A stretch of DNA of 47,988 nt from Streptococcus sanguinis (GTDB taxonomy: Bacteria > Bacillota > Bacilli > Lactobacillales > Streptococcaceae): assembly GCF_003943655.1 (NCBI RefSeq), contig NZ_RJMM01000002.1:101184-149171 (forward strand). Reading direction: 5' to 3'. The notes under the pieces are model-generated. The model had not been told where the DNA came from and ran no database searches. It worked only from the letters and a program-made list of their open reading frames with translations. A program made the position numbers and the translations under genes. This document shows, piece by piece, positions 30,630 to 40,594 of this stretch. Numbering within the stretch: position 1 is the first letter of the stretch; every line of letters starts with the position of its first letter.

Positions 30630-30652
30630 TATTCTTTCTGAAAACATCTTTT

Positions 30653-31549
30653 TCAAACAGAGTTTTTCTCCTGATTCAGAAAATGTCGAACAGCGCCTAA
30701 TCGTCCGGCTTCATTCCCTAGAGCTGCTGCCACTAAGTTTTTAGGCAAAAAGCGCGGATCTACTACTTGCTGCTTCATCAGACTTTCAAGACGTGGCAGA
30801 ATAAGCTCAGATCTAGCTAATATGCCGCCTCCGACAATCAAGACCTCTGGATTTAGAATATAGGACAGGGTTAAGAGACCTTTAGCTAGGCGGCCCAAGA
30901 ATATATCAAGTGTTTCCTGCGCCAGCTTATCTCCCTGGTCTACCGCTGCAAAAAAACTACGCCCAGTATGGCCTTGCTCACCTGTCTTTTGGCTGTATAA
31001 TGCTAACAAGGCAGTTGTTGAGGCCAGAGATTGCCAGTCCTGTCCATCTTCCATAGGCAGATAGCCTACCTCACCAGCGGTATAGGTGGATCCATTGACA
31101 ATCTTTCCATCATAGATAATGCCACCGCCAATGCCTGTACCGACAGTAATCATAACTGCAGAAGCATGACCTTTGGCAGCACCTAGCCAAGCCTCACCAA
31201 GAGCAGCACAATTAACATCATTTTCAATCGCAATCGGTAAACCAAATTCTTTTAAAATCCGACTACGGAAATCCGTTCCAATATAGCCTGGAATGGTATA
31301 GCCAGCGTAACTGATTTTCCCAGCCTGGCTGTCAACTACACCAGCAGATGAAATCGCTACTCCATCTAGCTCAAACTTCTCCTTATAAAATGCTATTAAC
31401 TGGCAAACCTGTTCTAAAATCTGATTCGTTTTCTTTTCAAAGTCAATCTCAGTAGCAACTTCTCGAAATTGATTTAGACTACGTCCATCAGACTGATAGA
31501 GATCTGCTTTAATCGTTGTCCCACCGATATCTATTCCAACAATATTCAC
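30653..31549 (-). CDS. nanK: ROK-family kinase, probable N-acetylmannosamine kinase
   Basis: 298 residues, GTG start at 31547-31549 overlapping the rpiR stop (GTGA). ROK motifs: phosphate loop GIDIGGTTIKADLY (5-18), catalytic Asp in AIENDVNCAALGEAW (about 105) and MITVGTGIGGGIIYDGK (about 132). The Cys-rich zinc site typical of ROK repressors and many glucokinases is absent, and there is no N-terminal helix-turn-helix. In a cluster with nanA and nanE the natural substrate is N-acetylmannosamine; glucose kinase activity cannot be excluded. It is the last gene of the sialic-acid cluster. Confidence 0.82.
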   Translation of the reverse strand: MNIVGIDIGGTTIKADLYQSDGRSLNQFREVATEIDFEKKTNQILEQVCQLIAFYKEKFELDGVAISSAGVVDSQAGKISYAGYTIPGYIGTDFRSRILKEFGLPIAIENDVNCAALGEAWLGAAKGHASAVMITVGTGIGGGIIYDGKIVNGSTYTAGEVGYLPMEDGQDWQSLASTTALLALYSQKTGEQGHTGRSFFAAVDQGDKLAQETLDIFLGRLAKGLLTLSYILNPEVLIVGGGILARSELILPRLESLMKQQVVDPRFLPKNLVAAALGNEAGRLGAVRHFLNQEKNSV

Positions 31550-32388
31550 GATTCATGCTCCTTGTCTTCTTGATTTTCTTCTAAAGCCGAAAGTGTATTT
31601 GTAAAGATTTGGCTGCGATGATCTCGGTCTAAATCCATATAATAGGCATAGAAAATGTCCATCACGACTAAAACCGGAAACTGAGGAGAGATATTATTGC
31701 CCTGTGCCAAGTGCTTCTTGACAGCTACTAAGACCAGTTCATCACACTGCTGCCTCAAATCGTCGCTGTTATTGGAAGTTACCAGCACAGTCTTGGCTCC
31801 GACTTTTTTAGCACTCTGAATAGCCTGCGTGATAATTTTAGTTTCACCAGATATGGAAATTCCAATAACCAGACAGTCTGGATCCAGCATGACTCTATTC
31901 ACCCGAATCATATGGTCGTCCGTAATGGCCTTACAAACCATTCCCAACCGCATGAAGCGAAACTCCATTTCCCGAGCCACTAAGCCTGAACTTCCCTGTC
32001 CGTAGATATAGACTCGGCCAGCATTGTTGAGCATATCCCCCACGCGCAAGAACTGTTCTTCATCAATCAAGGAAAAAGTCTTATTGAGCAATTCGCCATA
32101 ATCAGACAAGACATTTCTGGTCAAATCCCGACTGACATTTTTACTTTCTGAGCTGGATTCCTGAAATTCAAAGATAAACTGCCGATAGCCTGAAAAGCCA
32201 CATTTCTTGGCAAAGCGAGTCAGAGAAGGCACAGAGACATAGAGCTTCTGAGACACAGCCTGAGCCGATAAATCAGCTGTCAGTGCCCCGTCAGACAGAA
32301 AATAATCTGCAATTTTCTTTTCCAGGTGTGTCAGACTGCCATATACAGACTCAATCACTGGCAAAATGTTTTTTTCCAAAGAAACCAT
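31546..32388 (-). CDS. nanR: RpiR-family regulator of the sialic-acid cluster (NanR-type)
   Basis: 280 residues. N-terminal RpiR helix-turn-helix (1-75: 'LTHLEKKIADYFLSDG...SAQAVSQKLYVSVPSLTRFAKKCGFSGYRQFIFEF') and a C-terminal SIS sugar-phosphate domain (about 105-260: 'VYIYGQGSSGLVAREMEFRFMRLG...DCLVIGISISGETKIITQAI'). SIS domains bind phosphorylated amino sugars, so ManNAc-6-P or GlcNAc-6-P is a likely effector. It has its own promoter, and its start is 170 bp from yhcH. Confidence 0.82.
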   Translation of the reverse strand: MVSLEKNILPVIESVYGSLTHLEKKIADYFLSDGALTADLSAQAVSQKLYVSVPSLTRFAKKCGFSGYRQFIFEFQESSSESKNVSRDLTRNVLSDYGELLNKTFSLIDEEQFLRVGDMLNNAGRVYIYGQGSSGLVAREMEFRFMRLGMVCKAITDDHMIRVNRVMLDPDCLVIGISISGETKIITQAIQSAKKVGAKTVLVTSNNSDDLRQQCDELVLVAVKKHLAQGNNISPQFPVLVVMDIFYAYYMDLDRDHRSQIFTNTLSALEENQEDKEHES

Positions 32389-32419
32389 CAGACACTTTCC
32401 TCCTGCAACTATTTTCTTT

Positions 32420-32449
32420 ATTTTACCACTTTCTCAAAAGTAATTCCAA
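32420..32449 (-). promoter_or_regulatory. Internal promoter before the RpiR gene
   Basis: On the minus strand TTGGAA (32444-32449), 18-bp spacer, TAAAAT (32420-32425), 31 nt before the ATG. It would allow regulator and kinase expression without induction of the whole operon. Confidence 0.55.
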
Positions 32450-32557
32450 CCCTTCCTTGCTAGAATTCTCCAGCAGAAAATAAAGTTCAAAACTAACTAA
32501 AAAAACTGGGGCAGCATGTTAAGAACAATCCGTCTTTCTCATCCCGCCCGCAGCCTT

Positions 32558-33010
32558 TTATACAATTTTTACTTTAAAGACAACCTTACGGATGGGGCCG
32601 GCTTCTTCAGCTATCAGTCCAGTCTTATGGGCGTCATTAGGATCCAGCAAGAGCAGGTTGCCAGGAGTAAATATCAGGTCAAACAAAGCTTGGCCGGACA
32701 TCTGCTGCCAGTCTCCCTCCGCATCATAATCCCCTTCTTCCATATTGGACAAAAAGTTATAGTGGATGCGCTCTCTTCCTTCAAAAATCAGATGCACATC
32801 GTAAAATTCCCTATGACTTTCCCAGACCCGTTTATCTTCGGTCGTAGTCGTCATTTCAATGACATTGTAAAAGAAATCATCAGACACAGGGTGATTGCCC
32901 TTTTCATCTTGGCTGACATCATGTGTCTTTAAAAACTCCAAGACTTTTTTTAAGGCAGGATGCTGAATGTCTCTCTCAACAGCTGCTCCTTTATATTGAA
33001 CTAGTTCCAT
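32558..33010 (-). CDS. YhcH/YjgK/YiaL-family protein (cupin-like, sialic-acid associated)
   Basis: 150 residues. Its ATG shares one base with the stop of the symporter gene (TAATG), indicating translational coupling. The family core is visible: 'VIEMTTTTEDKRVWESHREFYDVHLIFEGRERI' with the Glu/His/Asp/His metal-binding set, and 'LFTPGNLLLLDPNDAHKTGL'-like sequence near 110. In E. coli the homologue in the nan region (YhcH/NanQ) is linked to sugar anomer handling. The exact substrate here is inferred from the neighbours. Confidence 0.85.
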   Translation of the reverse strand: MELVQYKGAAVERDIQHPALKKVLEFLKTHDVSQDEKGNHPVSDDFFYNVIEMTTTTEDKRVWESHREFYDVHLIFEGRERIHYNFLSNMEEGDYDAEGDWQQMSGQALFDLIFTPGNLLLLDPNDAHKTGLIAEEAGPIRKVVFKVKIV

Positions 33011-34548
33011 TAGTGCCGTACCTCCCAGGATTTATCTGCGTGAATGCTTGCAATATCGTAAACTGTTGTATTCTCTGGCGCAGCCTTGCCTCCGGTTAAG
33101 ACGGAAACCACATAGCCTACAATCAAGGAAACAACAATTGAAATCAAGGAATAAGCCCAGATACTAACGGCTTCTGCTGGTAGAGCGTACTTGATGACTA
33201 GCAGGACAATACTGGAAGCAATCATAGCTGCATAAGCTCCCTTGAGGTTGGCACGCTTGGTGAAGATTCCCAGAATAAAGATTCCTCCCAAGACACCTAG
33301 CACCAAGCCCATAAAGCCATTAAACCAAACATAGGCCGATGTAATACCTGTATGAGCCATCACGATTGAAACTACTGTGGAGAAGACTCCTACACCTAGA
33401 GAAACATATTGAGCAATTTTAGTCCGTTTCTTGTCGTCCAGATTGCTGGATACAACATCTTGAATATCCAGCGTCCAAGAAGTCGCTACGGAATTAAGAC
33501 CAGTCGAAATGGTAGATTGAGCCGCCGCATAAATGGCTGCAATCAGGACACCGGTCACCCCAACTGGAAGACCATAGGCAATAAAGTAAGTGAAGATCTG
33601 GTCTTGAGGAATAGAGCTGCCCTCGCTGCCTGGATGCTGTACTTGATAATAGACGTATAAGCCTGTACCAATCAGATAAAAGACAGAGGCGATAAAGATT
33701 GACAAAACTCCGTTCGTAAACATCATTTTATTGAGTTTCTTCACATTCTGAGTTGTCGTAAAGCGCTGAACGATATCTTGCGAAGATACATAAGAGGACA
33801 GGGTATTGGTACCAGAGCCCAAGATAATTAGGAAAATAGAATCTTTCAGCAAGTTAAGATTGAAAATAGTTTCTTTTCCTGAGATAAATTTACCGCTGGC
33901 CAGCTCACTAGCAATATCGCCAAAGCCACCCTTGAGATTGGCAATTAGGAAGAAAAGCCCTACAACTGTACCAATCAAGAGTACTGAACCTTGAATAAAG
34001 TCTGTCCACAGAACTGACTTGACACCACCGGTATAGGAGTAAACAATGGCAATCGCACCCATCGCGATAATCAAGATATTGACATCAATCTTCGTCAGAG
34101 TAGCCAGAGCCACTGAAGGTAGATACATAATGATGGACATGCGGCCGATTTGATAGATGATGAAGAAGACAGCTGACAAAGCCCGCAAGGCCTTAGAACC
34201 AAAACGTTTTTGCAGGTAGTCATAGGCTGTATCAATATCCAGACGTGCATAAATCGGCAAGAAGAAACGAATAGCCACTGGAATGGCAAAAATCATACCC
34301 AACTGGGCAAACCAGAGCAACCAAGTCCCTGCATAAGAGTTCCCCGCCAGTGTCATAAAGGAAATCGGACTTAGCAATGTAGCAAAAATGGAAACAGATG
34401 TTACATACCAAGGTACCGTTCCATCACCTTTAAAGAACTCTTTACCCTGCATCTCCTTTTTCGAGAACAACAAACCTGCTACCAGAACAACTAGTAAATA
34501 CACAATCAGAATAATCATATCGATTGTGGTAAAACCAACATTTCCCAT
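33010..34548 (-). CDS. Sodium:solute symporter, probable sialic-acid transporter
   Basis: 512 residues with about 13 hydrophobic helices, RBS GGAG. SSS-family pattern: N-terminal 'TTIDMIILIVYLLVVLVAGLLFSKKEMQGKEFFKGDGTVPWYVTSVSIFATLLSPISFM' and the sodium-site helices including 'YIQKRFG'-like 'DYLQKRFGSKALRALSAVFFIIYQIGRM' and 'ISTGLNSVATSWTLDI' (Ser/Thr near the second Na+ site). Position between nanA and yhcH points to N-acetylneuraminate, by analogy to SiaT/NanT-type SSS carriers. Uptake would be driven by the Na+ gradient that the neighbouring V-ATPase builds. Confidence 0.88.
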   Translation of the reverse strand: MGNVGFTTIDMIILIVYLLVVLVAGLLFSKKEMQGKEFFKGDGTVPWYVTSVSIFATLLSPISFMTLAGNSYAGTWLLWFAQLGMIFAIPVAIRFFLPIYARLDIDTAYDYLQKRFGSKALRALSAVFFIIYQIGRMSIIMYLPSVALATLTKIDVNILIIAMGAIAIVYSYTGGVKSVLWTDFIQGSVLLIGTVVGLFFLIANLKGGFGDIASELASGKFISGKETIFNLNLLKDSIFLIILGSGTNTLSSYVSSQDIVQRFTTTQNVKKLNKMMFTNGVLSIFIASVFYLIGTGLYVYYQVQHPGSEGSSIPQDQIFTYFIAYGLPVGVTGVLIAAIYAAAQSTISTGLNSVATSWTLDIQDVVSSNLDDKKRTKIAQYVSLGVGVFSTVVSIVMAHTGITSAYVWFNGFMGLVLGVLGGIFILGIFTKRANLKGAYAAMIASSIVLLVIKYALPAEAVSIWAYSLISIVVSLIVGYVVSVLTGGKAAPENTTVYDIASIHADKSWEVRH

Positions 34549-34631
34549 AGAATTTCTCCATATTATTCATATCCAGAGCGTGGGGTGGGCAGTCTAAGCC
34601 TGCCCTGAACTCTGGTGTTACACTCTTTATA

Positions 34632-35549
34632 TTATAAGAAGTCTTCTCTTACCTGCTTAATCATAGCAGCTGCTTCTTTGGCAATTGCATAGTCTCCCTC
34701 AGATAGAGGCTCTAACGGTGCTCGAACAGAGCCAATATCCAAGTCCTCATTGAGACGAAGAATTTCTTTCATAACAGCATAGAGATTTGCTCGACCGCTG
34801 ACCATCTTGTAAATCACACTATTAATCGCATGTTGCAGTTCTTTAGCACGATCCAGATCTTTGTCAATGATGAGTTGGTTGAGCTTGAGGAAGAGGTCAG
34901 GCATCACAGCATAGGTTCCGCCAATTCCGGCCTTAGCACCAATAACTCGACCGCTGATAAACTGTTCGTCTGGACCATTAAAGACAATATGATCTTCCCC
35001 ACCTTCTGCGACAAAGATTTGAATGTCTTGAGTCGGCATAGAAGAGTTTTTAACCCCAATAACTCGTGGATTTTTACGCATTTCCGCATAGAGTGCTGGT
35101 GTCAGGGTCGTTCCAGACAGCTGCGGAATATTGTAGATGACAAAGTCAGTATTCGGAGCTGCTGCACTCATATCGTTCCAGTACTTAGCGATAGAATAGT
35201 CGGGCAAACGGAAGTAAATAGGAGGAATAGCAGCGATGGCATCAACACCCAAACTTTCAGCATGCTTAGCCAGTTCCACACTGTCCTTCGTGTTGTTGCA
35301 GGCTACATGAGCGATAACTGTCAGCTTGCCCTTAGCCACTTCCATGACATTTTCCAAAATCACTTTCCGGTCTGCTACACTGAGGTAAATACACTCACCA
35401 GAAGAACCATTAACATAGACACCCTTAACTCCCTTATCAATAAAGTACTGAGTCAAAGCACGCACACGTTCTGGGCTTACTTCTCCTGCTTCATCATAAC
35501 AAGCATAAAAGGCTGGAATGACACCTTCATATTTTTCTAATTTTGACAT
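34632..35549 (-). CDS. nanA: N-acetylneuraminate lyase
   Basis: 305 residues, RBS GAGGAAG. A class I aldolase of the DapA/NanA family: 'GVYVNGSSGECIYLSVADRK' (substrate carboxylate loop), Tyr in FVIYNIPQLSGTTL (about 143) and the Schiff-base Lys in RVIGVKNSSM (about 171). NGSSGE rather than GTTGE and the sialic-acid neighbours support NanA over dihydrodipicolinate synthase. It cleaves Neu5Ac to pyruvate and N-acetylmannosamine. It is second in the operon, 17 bp after nanE. Confidence 0.94.
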   Translation of the reverse strand: MSKLEKYEGVIPAFYACYDEAGEVSPERVRALTQYFIDKGVKGVYVNGSSGECIYLSVADRKVILENVMEVAKGKLTVIAHVACNNTKDSVELAKHAESLGVDAIAAIPPIYFRLPDYSIAKYWNDMSAAAPNTDFVIYNIPQLSGTTLTPALYAEMRKNPRVIGVKNSSMPTQDIQIFVAEGGEDHIVFNGPDEQFISGRVIGAKAGIGGTYAVMPDLFLKLNQLIIDKDLDRAKELQHAINSVIYKMVSGRANLYAVMKEILRLNEDLDIGSVRAPLEPLSEGDYAIAKEAAAMIKQVREDFL

Positions 35550-35566
35550 ATTCTTCCTCTTTTCTA

Positions 35567-36241
35567 TTATTTCGTTGCGTCTGCAAACTTCCTTGTAATC
35601 AGCTGCGGCCGTGTAATGGCAGATCCTACTACTACACTAAAGGCTCCCAGCTCTAGAACCCTTTTCACCTTTTCAGGACTATCAATATTCCCCTCAGCAA
35701 TCAGAGGGTGCTGAATCTCAGCTAAAGCTTTTCGGATGATTTCAAAGTCATTAGCTTCAATCTTATCTCCCTTGCTCTGACTAGTATAGCCTACCAAGGT
35801 TGTTCCGATAAAATCAAATCCCATTCGATCAGCTTCCAGCATCTCGTCAAGAGTTGAACAATCAGCCATCAAAAGCTGCTGAGGATATTTTTCTTTGACT
35901 TTCTGGAAAAATGCTTTTAAACTCTCTCCTTGAGGTCTGCTGGAATTTGTCGCATCTAAAGCGATAATCTCCGGATGGGCTTCCATCAGCTCATCTACTT
36001 CTATCATAGTTGCTGTAATAAAAGCCTGAGCATCTGGATAATCTCTTTTGATAATCCCAATAACTGGCAAATCCACCGCTTCTTTAATAGCCTTGATGTC
36101 TATAACCGAGTTAGCCCTAATTCCGCTAGCACCTCCTTCTTTGGCCGCCACTGCCATACGAGCCATGATAAAGTCGCTATGTAATGGTTCGTTTGGTAGA
36201 GCCTGACACGACACAATTAACTTATGTCTCAACTCTTCCAT
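35567..36241 (-). CDS. nanE: N-acylglucosamine-6-phosphate 2-epimerase
   Basis: 224 residues, start ATG at 36241 with AAGGAGG upstream. A NanE TIM barrel: 'LIVSCQALPNEPLHSDFIMARMAVAAKEGGASGIRANSV', 'VIGIIKRDYPD' with the catalytic Lys, 'IALDATNSSRPQG', 'LMADCSTLDEM', 'LIAEGNIDSPEK' and 'SVVVGSAITRPQLIT'. It turns ManNAc-6-P into GlcNAc-6-P, which enters glycolysis after NagA/NagB encoded elsewhere. It is the first gene of the nan operon. Confidence 0.95.
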   Translation of the reverse strand: MEELRHKLIVSCQALPNEPLHSDFIMARMAVAAKEGGASGIRANSVIDIKAIKEAVDLPVIGIIKRDYPDAQAFITATMIEVDELMEAHPEIIALDATNSSRPQGESLKAFFQKVKEKYPQQLLMADCSTLDEMLEADRMGFDFIGTTLVGYTSQSKGDKIEANDFEIIRKALAEIQHPLIAEGNIDSPEKVKRVLELGAFSVVVGSAITRPQLITRKFADATK

Positions 36242-36268
36242 TTGATTCCTATCCTCCTTACTTATTTA

Positions 36269-36283
36269 TTGTAAGCCTTTACA
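36269..36283. promoter_or_regulatory. cre-like site at the nan promoter
   Basis: TTGTAAGCCTTTACA matches WTGNAANCGNWNNCW at all fixed positions but one (C for G in the centre). It sits at about +7 to +21 of the nan transcript, a roadblock position for CcpA. Confidence 0.5.
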
Positions 36284-36289
36284 TTTATT

Positions 36290-36318
36290 ATCTTAACATT
36301 TATTGCAATTAGTTTCAA
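36290..36318 (-). promoter_or_regulatory. Promoter of the nan operon
   Basis: On the minus strand TTGAAA (36313-36318), 17-bp spacer, TAAGAT (36290-36295). Confidence 0.65.
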
Positions 36319-36334
36319 TATGATTTTACTTTTA

Positions 36335-36346
36335 GAAAGTACTTTC
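36335..36346. promoter_or_regulatory. Candidate RpiR (NanR) operator
   Basis: GAAAGTACTTTC, a perfect 12-bp palindrome, lies 16 bp upstream of the nan -35. RpiR regulators of amino-sugar genes bind palindromes of this general kind and often activate; the assignment is inference. Confidence 0.45.
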
Positions 36347-36448
36347 CTTTTGAGTATTACTTTTTTTATCTCAGTTTGAAACTTATACAGACGAATATAG
36401 CTAAAATATTTTTTCTTTTCGTGGCTGTTCCAACATTTTTCTACAACT

Positions 36449-36477
36449 AAAAAGAACTAGGCAAATGCCTAGTCCCA
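36449..36477 (-). terminator. Terminator after the esterase remnant
   Basis: On the minus strand GGGACTAGGCA / TGCCTAGTTC, a near-perfect stem with a tiny loop, then TTTTTAG. It ends the transcript of the remnant and precedes the nan promoter. Confidence 0.75.
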
Positions 36478-36522
36478 GGGGGGAAGCAGTTTTGTAGACT
36501 TCCAGTCTTAAAGGAATCAAAG

Positions 36523-36699
36523 CTAACAAACACTAAGCTCAACTAGCTTATTTAAAACCCCATATTTGAAGTTTAAATCAGCAGAGTGCCAATTAGCAAA
36601 CCTCCGCACGTATTGATTCCAAAAGGTATCAAAATCGTCGGGCATTTCATCTCTTCCGCGATAATGTAACATTTCTTTAAGTAAAGTAGGGTTTTTCAT
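36523..36699 (-). pseudogene. 5' remnant of an acetyl xylan esterase-like gene
   Basis: A 58-codon frame on the minus strand, ATG at 36697-36699, RBS GGGAGGA with 6-bp spacing, TAG at 36523-36525. It begins MKNPTLLKEMLHYRGRDEMP and continues DDFDTFWNQYV, which closely resembles from memory the N-terminus of streptococcal acetyl xylan esterase (Axe1, about 320 residues), a gene found with sialic-acid genes in S. pneumoniae. Residues 32-58 (RRFANWHSADLNFKY... ending LVELSVC) still follow the esterase spacing but are eroded, and the remaining 80% of the gene, with its Ser-Asp-His triad, is missing. Promoter, RBS and terminator remain. Most likely a deletion relic of an ancestral larger nan locus; a real small protein cannot be excluded. 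Confidence 0.65.
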
Positions 36700-36734
36700 G
36701 TCTTATCCTCCCAACGATTCTTGAGACCTCTTTC

Positions 36735-36763
36735 ATCATACCATAGAAAGAGGAAATCTTCAA
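36735..36763 (-). promoter_or_regulatory. Promoter of the esterase remnant
   Basis: On the minus strand TTGAAG (36758-36763), 17-bp spacer, TATGAT (36735-36740), 35 nt before the remnant's ATG. It looks functional. Confidence 0.6.
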
Positions 36764-36815: not shown

Positions 36816-37496
36816 CTAAGAACCCATATGAAGCAGAAGCAGCAAATAAAACAAACTAAATCCTATGTTTAGGCCGGCTCCGTTAAGGTAGGGGCGTCCG
36901 ATTCTAAGCTTTTCTACCAGTAAGATAGTTAACAGACTGAGCGGTAAAGGAGTCAGCAGCCCCAGATAAGCAGGCAATATTGTCTGACCGCTAACTATTA
37001 GCAGTGAGTAAACGAACCAGCCTAGACCTGTCAGGGCGATAGCTGTCCGCCAGGTTATATCTAGAAAGAGCACTGCTTCATTGATAAGCCCGCTGTCTTC
37101 GTCTGAGCAGACCTGTCCGTTACTTCGTTTATAAGCCTTTTTGCTGATGATCCCAACGTAGTAAAAGGCCACATGTGCCACGGGTGACAGGGCAAATCCA
37201 ATTCCTAACAAGGCTATTGACAGATAAGCCCACAAGCCCTTATTTGTCAAACCAAAGAGAGCATAAAGCGAGACTAACATAAGAGGGATTGAGAAGTTAG
37301 CCACCAGAGCGCCCAGACGCAGCCGACCGACAGAGCCAGATAACATCAGCATAGCCAGATTCTTATTGCCAATCCGACTCTGCTCCGTAAAAGAGGCATA
37401 ACTTTCCTTGTCTACCTCAAAACCAACCAGCAGAACATCCCCCAATAACCAGCAAAGACCACTCAACAGCCCAGCCCATAAAGATAAAAAAATCAC
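36816..37496 (-). CDS. Seven-helix membrane protein of unknown function (DUF6796-like)
   Basis: 226 residues. GTG start at 37494-37496 with AAGGAG 6 bp upstream; an ATG two bases earlier is in another frame and meets a stop at once. The protein has about seven hydrophobic segments (3-25, 55-75, 80-100, 110-130, 150-172, 177-200, 205-224) with little soluble part; one loop (about 118-135) has a Lys/Asp-rich stretch. I believe it belongs to a family called DUF6796, from memory only. No enzyme motif is seen. It stands alone between adhE and the esterase remnant. Confidence 0.75.
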   Translation of the reverse strand: MIFLSLWAGLLSGLCWLLGDVLLVGFEVDKESYASFTEQSRIGNKNLAMLMLSGSVGRLRLGALVANFSIPLMLVSLYALFGLTNKGLWAYLSIALLGIGFALSPVAHVAFYYVGIISKKAYKRSNGQVCSDEDSGLINEAVLFLDITWRTAIALTGLGWFVYSLLIVSGQTILPAYLGLLTPLPLSLLTILLVEKLRIGRPYLNGAGLNIGFSLFYLLLLLHMGS

Positions 37497-37939
37497 ATTA
37501 CTCTCCTTTTTTCCATTGTCTCCTTATCTTAGCACAAAAGCTCACTCAATCACAAGTAGTCAGAAGGTTTACGTCTTTTTACCCCAGCAAGCTCCTTTCG
37601 TTAAGAGACTTAGCACTCACGTCGCTCCTCTCCTCAGCATCCATGTCTCTATGCCCGGCTTCGACCAGAGGTCTTGCCTGGCTATGTGTTTCTTCAAGGT
37701 GTACAGCTTTTGTCCCAAGGGACAAAACTGCATCCACTGCTCTATGACTCAACTTTGTCCTACGGACGCGTTTCATTAAGACACATAGCGCTCACGTCGC
37801 TCCGCTCCTCAGCATCAATATCTCTAAGCTCGGCTTCGACCGACGGTCTTGCCTCGCTAAGATACATAGAAAAATCCCCCACCAAAGGCTAGGGGATAAC
37901 CGACAGACTGTCTTATTTTTAATTGAGGAAGCTGCTCGC
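37497..37939. repeat. Two degenerate direct repeats of ~90 bp and internal hairpins
   Basis: 443 bp without a credible gene. Unit A (37599-37691) and unit B (37774-37870) share TCACGTCGCTCC, CTCCTCAGCATC, CGGCTTCGACC and GGTCTTGCCT in the same order and spacing, about 75-80% alike by eye. Each can fold (in unit B, CTAAGCTCGGC... pairs with ...GCCTCGCTAAG). Between them is a perfect hairpin TTTTGTCCC-AA-GGGACAAAA (37708-37727). The region is GC-richer than its neighbours. Confidence 0.7.
37870..37897 (-). terminator. Terminator of adhE
   Basis: On the minus strand ATCCCC-(12 nt)-GGGGAT followed by TTTTC, about 45 bp after the adhE stop and abutting repeat unit B. Confidence 0.7.
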
Positions 37940-40594
37940 TTATTTGCGGCGTCCTGGGCGTTCCTTGTAGCCATAGTAAGCGTCTTCGATGATTTCCTGC
38001 ATGTGGTCAACCATTGGAAGGCGTGGGTTGGCTGGAGAACATTGGTCTTCGTAAGCAAGGAAGGCCAATTCGCGTGAATGTTCTTTCCATTCTTTTTCGT
38101 CAATACCTTGAGCTTTGAAGTTCATTTCGATACCGACACGTTCTCCCAGTTCATAAACAGCTTTCGCAAATGATTCAACACCTTCTTCTGGAGTAGAAGC
38201 TGGCAAGCCGAGCATGCGAGCGATGTCTTGGTATTTCTCATCCGCACGGTAGTAGTTGTACTTAGGCCATGTCGCTGTCTTAGCTGGACGTGTACCGTTG
38301 TAACGGATTACATATGGCAGCAAGATCGCATTTGTACGACCATGGATCGTATGGAACTGAGCACCAATCTTATGGGCCATAGAGTGGGAAATTCCCAGGA
38401 AGGCATTGGCAAAGGCCATACCAGCAATAGTAGAGGCATTATGCATCTTTTCGCGAGAGTGGAAATCAGCATTCTTAACAGAGCTTTCCAGATTTTCAAA
38501 GACGAGTTTGATAGCTTGGAGAGCCAAACCATCTGTAAAGTCGCTGGCCATCTGAGATACATAAGCTTCTGTTGCGTGAGTCAGCACGTCCATACCAGTG
38601 TCCGCTGCGACAAATCCTGGAACAGTCAGTACCAGAGCTGGGTCTACAATGGCTACAGTTGGAGTCAGAGAGTAGTCAGCGATTGGGTACTTGCGGTTAT
38701 TAGCCTTATCAGAGATAACGGCAAACGGTGTTACTTCTGAACCTGTACCAGATGTTGTAGGGATTGCGATAAACTTAGTCTTCTTACCAAGCAACGGGAA
38801 TTTGAAGGCACGTTTACGGATATCCATGAATTTTTGCACAAGGTCACGGAAGTCCACTTCTGGTTGCTCATAGAAGAGCCACATTACTTTAGCTGCGTCC
38901 ATTGGCGAACCACCACCAAGCGCGATGATTGTATCAGGTTTGAAGGTACGCATAATCTCTGTACCACGTTCAACTGTTGTGATATCTGGATCTGGCTCTA
39001 CGTCTGCAAAGATTTGGTAAACAACCTTATTCCGACGAAGATCAAGTTGTTCGATGATACGATCTAGGAAACCAAGCTCTACCATAGCATGGTCTGTTAC
39101 GATCATGACACGTTCCACATCGCGACATTTTTGCAGATATTGGATAGAGTCACGCTCGAAGTAAGTTTTTGAAGGGAGTTTCATCCATTGCATATTATTT
39201 CTACGTCTTCCTACTTTTTTGATGTTCAAGAGATTCACAGCACTAACGTTATCACCAACTGAGTTGCGACCATAAGATCCACAGCCCAGAGTCAGTGATG
39301 GCAGGAAGGCATTATAAACATCCCCGATACCGCCGAAAGTAGAAGGTGAGTTGCAAATAACACGGATAGCACGGACAGCCTTACCAAATTCCTTGGTCAA
39401 CTCTTCGTCCGCTGTATGGATAGCAGCTGAATGACCAAGACCATGGAATTCTACCATTTGACGGGCTTTTTCAACACCGTCTTCACGGGATTCAGACTTG
39501 AGCACAGCAATGACAGGTGACAATTTTTCACGTGTCAATGGCTCTTTTTCACCAACTTCTTTACACTCTGCAGCCAAGATATTCGTATCTTCTGGCACGC
39601 TGAAACCTGCTTGCTCTGCAATCCAAGTAGCTGGCTTACCAACGATATCCGGATTGAGCTTAGCACCAGCACAGTTCTTGCTATTTGCCTTAGCACCGAA
39701 GCAGAATTCTTCCAACAGAGCTTTTTCTTTCTTATTTACAAAGTAAGTATGATAAGATTTGAACTCTGCTACAAATTCATCATAAACTTCCTTGTCAATG
39801 ATAACCGCTTGCTCAGAGGCACAGACCATACCATTGTCAAAGGACTTAGACATAACGATATCATGAGCTGCTTGACGGATATTAGCGGATTTTTCCACAT
39901 AAGCTGGTACGTTTCCGGCACCAACTCCCAGAGCTGGCTTACCACATGAGTAAGCTGCCTTCACCATTGCATTACCACCTGTAGCAAGGATCGTCGCAAT
40001 CCCTTCGTGGTTCATGAGGGCAGAAGTTGCTTCCATAGATGGCACTGTAATCCACTGCACACAGTTTTCAGGCGCACCTGCTGCAATCGCTGCATCACGC
40101 ACGATTTGTGCTGCATGAGCAGAAGATTCTTGAGCCGATGGGTGGAAAGCAAAGATGATCGGATTACGAGTCTTCAAAGAAATCAAAGATTTGAAAATCG
40201 CTGTTGAAGTCGGGTTGGTAGTCGGTGTGATACCGCAGACAACACCCACTGGCTCCGCAATCAGGGTCAAACCAGTTACATCATCTTCTTCAATCACGCC
40301 AACAGTCTTCGTGTGGCGCATATTATTCACAACGTGCTCACAGGCGAAAAGGTTTTTCGTTGCCTTGTCTTCAAAAACTCCGCGGCCTGTTTCTTCATAA
40401 GCGTGCAGGGCCAACTCACCGTGGGCATCCAAAGCTGCTACAGAGGCCTTGGCTACGATGTAGTCCACCTGTTCCTGATTCAGCTTTCTCATTTCCTCTA
40501 GTGCAGCCAGACCTTTTTGCACCAATTCATCAACATGCTTTTGCGCTGCCAAAGCCTTGTCTTCTTGTTCTACCGTTTTCTTCTTTTCAGCCAT
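37940..40594 (-). CDS. adhE: Bifunctional acetaldehyde-CoA/alcohol dehydrogenase
   Basis: 884 residues, ATG at 40594, RBS GGAGG. The N-terminal aldehyde dehydrogenase domain (1-450) has the catalytic Cys in SFDNGMVCASEQAV (about 255) and the glycine-rich region 'ATGGNAMVKAAYSCGKPALGVGAGNVP'. The C-terminal iron alcohol dehydrogenase domain (about 465-870) has 'DTIIALGGGSPMDAAKVMW', 'TGMDVLTHATEAYVS' and 'SHSMAHKIGAQFHTIHGRTNA', which supply the Asp and His iron ligands. It reduces acetyl-CoA to ethanol and regenerates two NAD+ in mixed-acid fermentation. Regulation by Rex and CcpA is suggested by the upstream sites. It is monocistronic. Confidence 0.97.
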   Translation of the reverse strand: MAEKKKTVEQEDKALAAQKHVDELVQKGLAALEEMRKLNQEQVDYIVAKASVAALDAHGELALHAYEETGRGVFEDKATKNLFACEHVVNNMRHTKTVGVIEEDDVTGLTLIAEPVGVVCGITPTTNPTSTAIFKSLISLKTRNPIIFAFHPSAQESSAHAAQIVRDAAIAAGAPENCVQWITVPSMEATSALMNHEGIATILATGGNAMVKAAYSCGKPALGVGAGNVPAYVEKSANIRQAAHDIVMSKSFDNGMVCASEQAVIIDKEVYDEFVAEFKSYHTYFVNKKEKALLEEFCFGAKANSKNCAGAKLNPDIVGKPATWIAEQAGFSVPEDTNILAAECKEVGEKEPLTREKLSPVIAVLKSESREDGVEKARQMVEFHGLGHSAAIHTADEELTKEFGKAVRAIRVICNSPSTFGGIGDVYNAFLPSLTLGCGSYGRNSVGDNVSAVNLLNIKKVGRRRNNMQWMKLPSKTYFERDSIQYLQKCRDVERVMIVTDHAMVELGFLDRIIEQLDLRRNKVVYQIFADVEPDPDITTVERGTEIMRTFKPDTIIALGGGSPMDAAKVMWLFYEQPEVDFRDLVQKFMDIRKRAFKFPLLGKKTKFIAIPTTSGTGSEVTPFAVISDKANNRKYPIADYSLTPTVAIVDPALVLTVPGFVAADTGMDVLTHATEAYVSQMASDFTDGLALQAIKLVFENLESSVKNADFHSREKMHNASTIAGMAFANAFLGISHSMAHKIGAQFHTIHGRTNAILLPYVIRYNGTRPAKTATWPKYNYYRADEKYQDIARMLGLPASTPEEGVESFAKAVYELGERVGIEMNFKAQGIDEKEWKEHSRELAFLAYEDQCSPANPRLPMVDHMQEIIEDAYYGYKERPGRRK

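Follow-up and report, generated by a model that had tools for sequence, protein, structure and literature searches.

Streptococcus sanguinis, an oral commensal able to cause endocarditis, carries in one of its genomes a short open reading frame that begins as an acetyl xylan esterase (AXE) does and then breaks off. What is this stump: a gene that decayed by itself, a small protein, the template of a short RNA, or the trace of a change in the genes beside it? We examined it within a window of 47,988 nucleotides, the whole stretch of DNA analysed here, and consider it very probably a truncated AXE gene, a scar on the left border of a replaced operon.

A sequence-only reading of the window had described a 58-codon relic of AXE at 36523–36699. 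An ATG frame of that length exists, but it runs on the minus strand (ATG at 36699–36697, stop ending at 36523), the plus strand of the interval having stops, and only codons 1–31 are AXE in frame. The frame has two parts:

36607 to 36699, minus strand: AXE gene remnant, codons 1–31 in frame (88% amino acid identity to intact AXE; codon table against nine AXE-bearing genomes).
36523 to 36606, minus strand: out-of-frame tail of 27 residues and a stop, with a one-base deletion at its start.

The resemblance to the AXE N-terminus is real. The Pfam family AXE1 (PF05448) matches stump residues 1–38 (E 1.9e-6, 27.3 bits against a cut-off of 21), over profile positions 1–39 of 321 only, and residues 1–33 are 88% identical to the intact AXE of genome G046. 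A protein search with the 58 residues matched 37 of 98 genomes; solved esterase structures matched weakly (E 0.27 and 0.39), and NCBIfam gave no match up to E 1. The catalytic part is gone, as had been claimed: the stump has neither the GGSQG catalytic serine motif, which lies at Ser181 in the G046 AXE, nor the hydrolase body, so its product would not be expected to have esterase activity. No second AXE was found elsewhere in the window's genome.

What became of the rest of the gene is answered by its relatives. We searched 284 Streptococcus genomes, one per GTDB species cluster, with a 461-base DNA query, scoring at most two candidates per genome; 51 genomes matched, 12 of them strongly (E <= 1e-47) and S. 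sanguinis-like, these counts not being frequencies within species. Of the loci that a protein search of the GTDB collection gave, the seven with a name all belong to S. sanguinis, and the window is 93–97% identical to its S. sanguinis relatives. Three of the 12 strong matches (the window's genome, G035 and G248) span all 461 bases, and the other nine cover the first 114–121 bases only, to about AXE codon 33.

The locus exists in two haplotypes. In the nine, the order is adhE, DUF6796 gene, AXE, nanE, an ABC transporter with its ATPase, nanA, nanK, a reversed rpiR and V-ATPase genes, with an extra 354-codon frame before rpiR in two (G251 and G247). The comparison with full-esterase strains that the sequence-only reading had proposed could thus be made at the same place: AXE has 333 codons in all nine, intact in eight of the 12 genomes and full-length with an in-frame stop in one more (G009). 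In the three, the stump is followed by nanE, nanA, a sodium:solute symporter gene, yhcH, rpiR, nanK and the same V-ATPase genes. The features of the window at this locus are:

37940 to 40594, minus strand: adhE, common left flank (name presumed).
36816 to 37496, minus strand: DUF6796 protein gene, left flank common to both haplotypes.
36600 to 36607, no strand: left breakpoint, where homology to the AXE haplotype breaks off (of six AXE loci compared, at 36600 in four and at 36607 in two).
35567 to 36241, minus strand: nanE (over its NCBIfam cut-off; 50% amino acid identity to the AXE-haplotype NanE).
34632 to 35549, minus strand: nanA, N-acetylneuraminate lyase-like (below NCBIfam equivalog cut-offs; 74% amino acid identity to the other haplotype).
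33010 to 34548, minus strand: sodium:solute symporter, replacing the ABC transporter (TIGR00813, over cut-off).
32558 to 33010, minus strand: YhcH/YjgK/YiaL family protein (TIGR00022, over cut-off).
31546 to 32388, minus strand: MurR/RpiR-type regulator (below equivalog cut-offs).
30653 to 31549, minus strand: ROK kinase, NanK-like (below cut-offs).
30644, no strand: approximate right breakpoint, where homology resumes toward the V-ATPase genes in the two AXE loci long enough to show it.

The names of the adhE, V-ATPase, ABC ATPase and permease genes are presumed from their sequences. NanE, the symporter and YhcH pass their NCBIfam cut-offs and NanA, NanK and RpiR do not; NanE, NanA, the NanK-like kinase, the symporter and the RpiR regulator nevertheless occur together, as in a sialic acid operon with a sodium:solute symporter. 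The best solved match of the symporter is 5nv9 (E 1.2e-75, over most of its length), a protein of the same family that we take to be the sialic acid transporter SiaT, although its entry names it a putative symporter only. The substrate of the window's protein is likewise only putative; on the strength of that match, window-type strains might take up sialic acid itself. Sodium:solute symporter matches occur in 29 of the 284 genomes, the three stump genomes included, and nowhere in the nine AXE genomes.

Homology between the haplotypes ends sharply and resumes on the far side of the replaced block. Six AXE loci align with the window in blocks of 93–95% identity up to the left breakpoint, proteins inside the replaced block are only 27–74% identical from haplotype to haplotype, and of the 150 bases before the V-ATPase genes 142–143 match in all nine AXE genomes. 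Like the flanks, the AXE portion of the stump is 94–98% identical to its counterparts in the nine. The DNA from 36600 downward is specific to the symporter haplotype, and window codons 32–58 consist of the frame-shifted junction and DNA without significant AXE similarity. With an intact sister copy at the same place and homology that ends sharply and resumes further on, the stump has the properties of a gene remnant at an allelic replacement junction.

The history that we favour would begin with an ancestor ordered adhE, DUF6796 gene, AXE, nanE, ABC transporter, nanA, nanK, rpiR and V-ATPase genes. In one lineage, the stretch from about AXE codon 33 to just before the V-ATPase genes would have been swapped for a shorter operon of nanE, nanA, symporter, yhcH, rpiR and nanK. 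The AXE promoter, ribosome site and first codons would have been retained because they lie outside the exchanged block. The loss of the AXE body, read from the window alone as the loss of a single gene, stands as an observation; its likely cause is the replacement of the whole downstream operon and not the decay of one gene.

Other variation at the locus was seen alongside the two haplotypes. The 12 S. sanguinis-like genomes hold three alternative transporter modules (window 30644–36600; loci L031, L034, L035 and L119): one ABC system in six, a SatABC-like ABC system with an added 367-amino-acid protein in three, and the sodium symporter in three. The solute-binding proteins of the AXE genomes have 439 amino acids in six (100% identical, as rounded) and 448 in three, the longer being 26–28% identical to the shorter and 81% to its counterpart in another relative, G039. 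Between the DUF6796 gene and adhE lies a repeat of about 89 bases (window 37596–37684 and 37771–37860), apparently in two copies in the window and several relatives (83–91% across copies) and in one copy in others, for example SK1. In G009, the AXE gene (locus L035, from 6518) is otherwise full-length and has a single in-frame stop, after codon 93; here AXE was lost a second time, independently.

Which form came first was judged from genomes outside the 12. Among 24 AXE loci from other genomes, nine hold nanE and four hold adhE and nanE within 3.1 kb (L008, L015, L026 and L027); two of those four genomes, viewed at 19 kb (L036 and L037), show the order adhE, AXE, nanE, ABC operon. Nan-type genes lie within the same 19 kb as AXE in all seven chosen relatives outside the 12, in one of them (L042) as YhcH and a transporter gene only, which bears out the earlier statement that AXE accompanies sialic acid genes. 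Because adhE, AXE and nanE stand together in those four loci and AXE lies near nan genes in all seven relatives, the AXE form is most likely the ancestral one here.

In a possible reverse history, the AXE form would have arrived and its left end then recombined into the symporter form; two genomes in which a symporter operon is flanked by adhE and V-ATPase genes leave room for it. In G275 the operon is unbroken, adhE precedes it at a distance of about 4.7 kb and V-ATPase genes follow; a complete AXE stands at another place in that genome. In G056 (L110, 7123–12648), a symporter-type nan operon lies in pieces between adhE and the V-ATPase genes: symporter, kinase and lyase are each in several frames or truncated, yhcH is mostly gone, no nanE match was found, and small double-glycine peptide genes lie between nanA and adhE. 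The adhE of this genome is also read in two frames, and some of the breaks may be sequencing errors. From G056 and G275 it follows that the symporter form would be old near this place. Recombination across the shared flanks is the likely route of the operon change. No donor of the symporter operon was found among the genomes searched, and about 115 bases past the breakpoint are without known source.

Several origins for the tail were considered. The 115 bases from breakpoint to hairpin align to AXE with scores of 25.5–29.5 against shuffle maxima of 31–36.5, no better than shuffled sequence, and the tail as an AXE 3' end was rejected on this ground. Among the 284 genomes, with at most two candidates scored per genome, no match outside the three stump genomes covers the tail DNA; an origin in a phage or plasmid was likewise rejected, with no match in phages and none in plasmids. 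At the AXE edge stand 15 bases, AAACAAGTGGCGGAG, that recur in a double-glycine peptide gene of G056 lying between adhE and nanA. A short-homology junction with such a gene was set aside as unproven because the G056 gene is oppositely oriented and the 27-base junction pattern (up to three mismatches) occurs in three of 284 genomes, all of them stump genomes.

Against operon replacement as the first cause stands an internal deletion within AXE, before or apart from the operon change, which is partly compatible with it and which we hold to be improbable. Its evidence starts from the expression signals of the stump:

36735 to 36763, minus strand: promoter-like TTGAAG-17-TATGAT, inherited from AXE (found by scan; −10 hexamer in 12 of 12 genomes).
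36706 to 36712, minus strand: ribosome-binding site GGGAGGA (identical in 12 of 12 genomes).
36453 to 36476, minus strand: terminator-like hairpin with a T-run, possibly a retained AXE terminator (from its likeness to the hairpin of intact AXE).

The hairpin is 81–84% alike over 43 bases to the one directly 3' of intact AXE in five of the nine AXE loci searched, and in the best alignment against L049 the likeness reaches about 40 bases farther upstream. Both observations would fit an internal deletion in AXE, as an added or alternative step, and G009 shows that AXE can be lost without operon change. Yet the symporter operon is present in all three stump genomes and in none of the nine AXE-bearing ones, and the stretch between breakpoint and hairpin, as noted, has no AXE likeness beyond that of shuffles.

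The same signals had been called intact, and TTGAAG-17-TATGAT, GGGAGGA and the hairpin are indeed present; they are not, however, specially kept. A simple scan found four promoter-like sites against a mean of 2.9 in shuffled sequence and one terminator against 1.1, no more than chance; what lifts the signals above chance is the identity of the −10 hexamer and of GGGAGGA in all 12 S. sanguinis-like genomes. The −35 hexamer varies among them (TTGAAG, TTGAAA or TTAAAA). The stumps took these signals over from AXE and have kept them no better than the intact genes have. An inverted repeat, CCTCTTTC ... GAAAGAGG, spans the AXE −10 hexamer (window 36727–36753) and may be an operator; its left arm is complete in six of the nine intact genomes and carries one change in three, and of the stumps, the window and G248 have the whole arm and G035 has two changes in it.

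Promoter-like and terminator-like signals less than 300 bases apart could also mark a unit that yields a short regulatory RNA, and the predicted fold of its 3' part is somewhat more stable than shuffles (z −1.8). This is very unlikely: 10 of 200 shuffles fold equally well, no Rfam family comes near its gathering score (best E 0.062, 21.8 bits against 128), and the 3' part, at 93–94% identity to the window among the stumps, is kept no differently from its surroundings (92–97%). The two other stumps differ from the window in the tail by 5.7% and 6.6%; among the stumps, adhE, the DUF6796 gene, nanE and nanA diverge by 3–5%, the stretch from the DUF6796 gene to the stump by 5–8% and that before nanE by 4%.

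Selection on the stump product was judged from the three stump frames and from intact AXE. The frames have 58 codons in the window and 35 in each of G035 and G248, with different C-termini: G035 and G248 have 33 AXE codons and a stop at 35, and the loss of one base in the window puts the frame out of register, so that it continues into the stump-haplotype DNA and ends at 58 codons. Codons 29–30 of the window match the intact AXE of G251 and not the other stumps, which suggests that the left flank went on recombining. A change of three bases sits at codon 10 in G035, G248 has a private amino acid change at codon 25, and none of the three stumps has a private synonymous change in codons 1–31. 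The changes in the roughly 30 stump codons are too few for a useful dN/dS.

Intact AXE has pN/pS 0.14 over the gene (36 pairs), and its codons 1–30 have a pS of 0.016 against 0.12 for the gene, with four of 304 windows lower still. Codon identity at the 5' end is mildly raised (first window 0.65 against a mean of 0.56, four windows higher; 15 sequences), in a scan that left out 10 of 24 locus sequences, nine read in the wrong orientation and one of fewer than 300 codons. A hidden element at the AXE 5' end was rejected on these figures. Because the 5' codons of intact AXE also vary little, low divergence among the stumps does not speak for a new role.

That the stump encodes a small protein retained for a different function, the alternative offered by the sequence-only reading, is very unlikely: start codon, ribosome site and −10 hexamer are intact in all three stumps and the frame is open, but the unequal frame lengths (58, 35 and 35), at odds with the constant 58-residue length that the reading had named as the mark of a real small protein, indicate that the product is not conserved, and the codon 10 and codon 25 changes and the low variation of the 5' end of intact AXE point the same way.

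The truncation had also been taken to mean that removal of O-acetyl groups from sialic acid was lost from an ancestral locus, which overstates the case. The window's genome keeps an EstA-like esterase, matching the tributyrin esterase 2uz0 (E 7.8e-127); no BNR_2-type sialidase was found in it. The available text of PMC5352144 describes S. pneumoniae Axe as active on mucin, as aiding sialidase in the tube and as intracellular, with no measurable contribution to mucin growth, colonisation or virulence, EstA being the esterase that mattered; the axe mutant expressed more estA, in the authors' view as compensation. Loss of sialic acid de-O-acetylation is thus not established for the window's genome, since an EstA-like esterase is kept and Axe has, in that text, no measurable role in pneumococcal mucin use.

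Known systems share parts of the locus. The AXE1 family (PF05448), S. pneumoniae Axe (SPD_1506) and SSA0070 of strain SK36 resemble the stump in their N-terminal 31 residues and their place beside nan genes, and differ from it in having the serine motif and the hydrolase body. For SK36, the portions of PMC3509027 at hand list an acetyl xylan esterase (SSA0070), NanE (SSA0071), an ABC transporter (SSA0074–0076) and no neuraminidase, and its Table 1 gives a nan locus (SSA0070–SSA0081) that has lyase, kinase, epimerase and regulator genes as the window does, with AXE next to NanE by locus number; unlike SK36, the window has a symporter for the ABC transporter, another gene order and an AXE stump. 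In the discussion of PMC3509027, both S. sanguinis and S. gordonii are said to use ManNAc and not NeuNAc, with growth curves shown for S. gordonii; PMC2693436 lists the same transporter gene of SK36, SSA_0076, as 'SAT 2'. None of the listed titles of open-access literature deals with a symporter-type nan locus of S. sanguinis, although such a form may nevertheless have been published.

The stump is most likely a real but inert remnant of a gene, left by the replacement of the neighbouring operon. We tentatively suggest, as a possibility on the doubtful side, that the S. sanguinis nan locus is a maintained three-way polymorphism, with one of three unrelated transporters (ManNAc-type ABC, SatABC-like ABC or sodium symporter) inside a common pair of flanks, in which AXE is kept with the ABC systems and discarded with the symporter and strains differ in the host amino sugars that they take up. 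AXE and such a symporter do not exclude each other everywhere: in other species, for example G275 and G031, one genome has both. As far as the consulted text of PMC3509027 and PMC2693436 goes, published work on SK36 describes the ABC form, and symporter-form strains may differ in sugar use. The operon polymorphism is of more interest than the stump, which marks an exchange of operons in an oral commensal.
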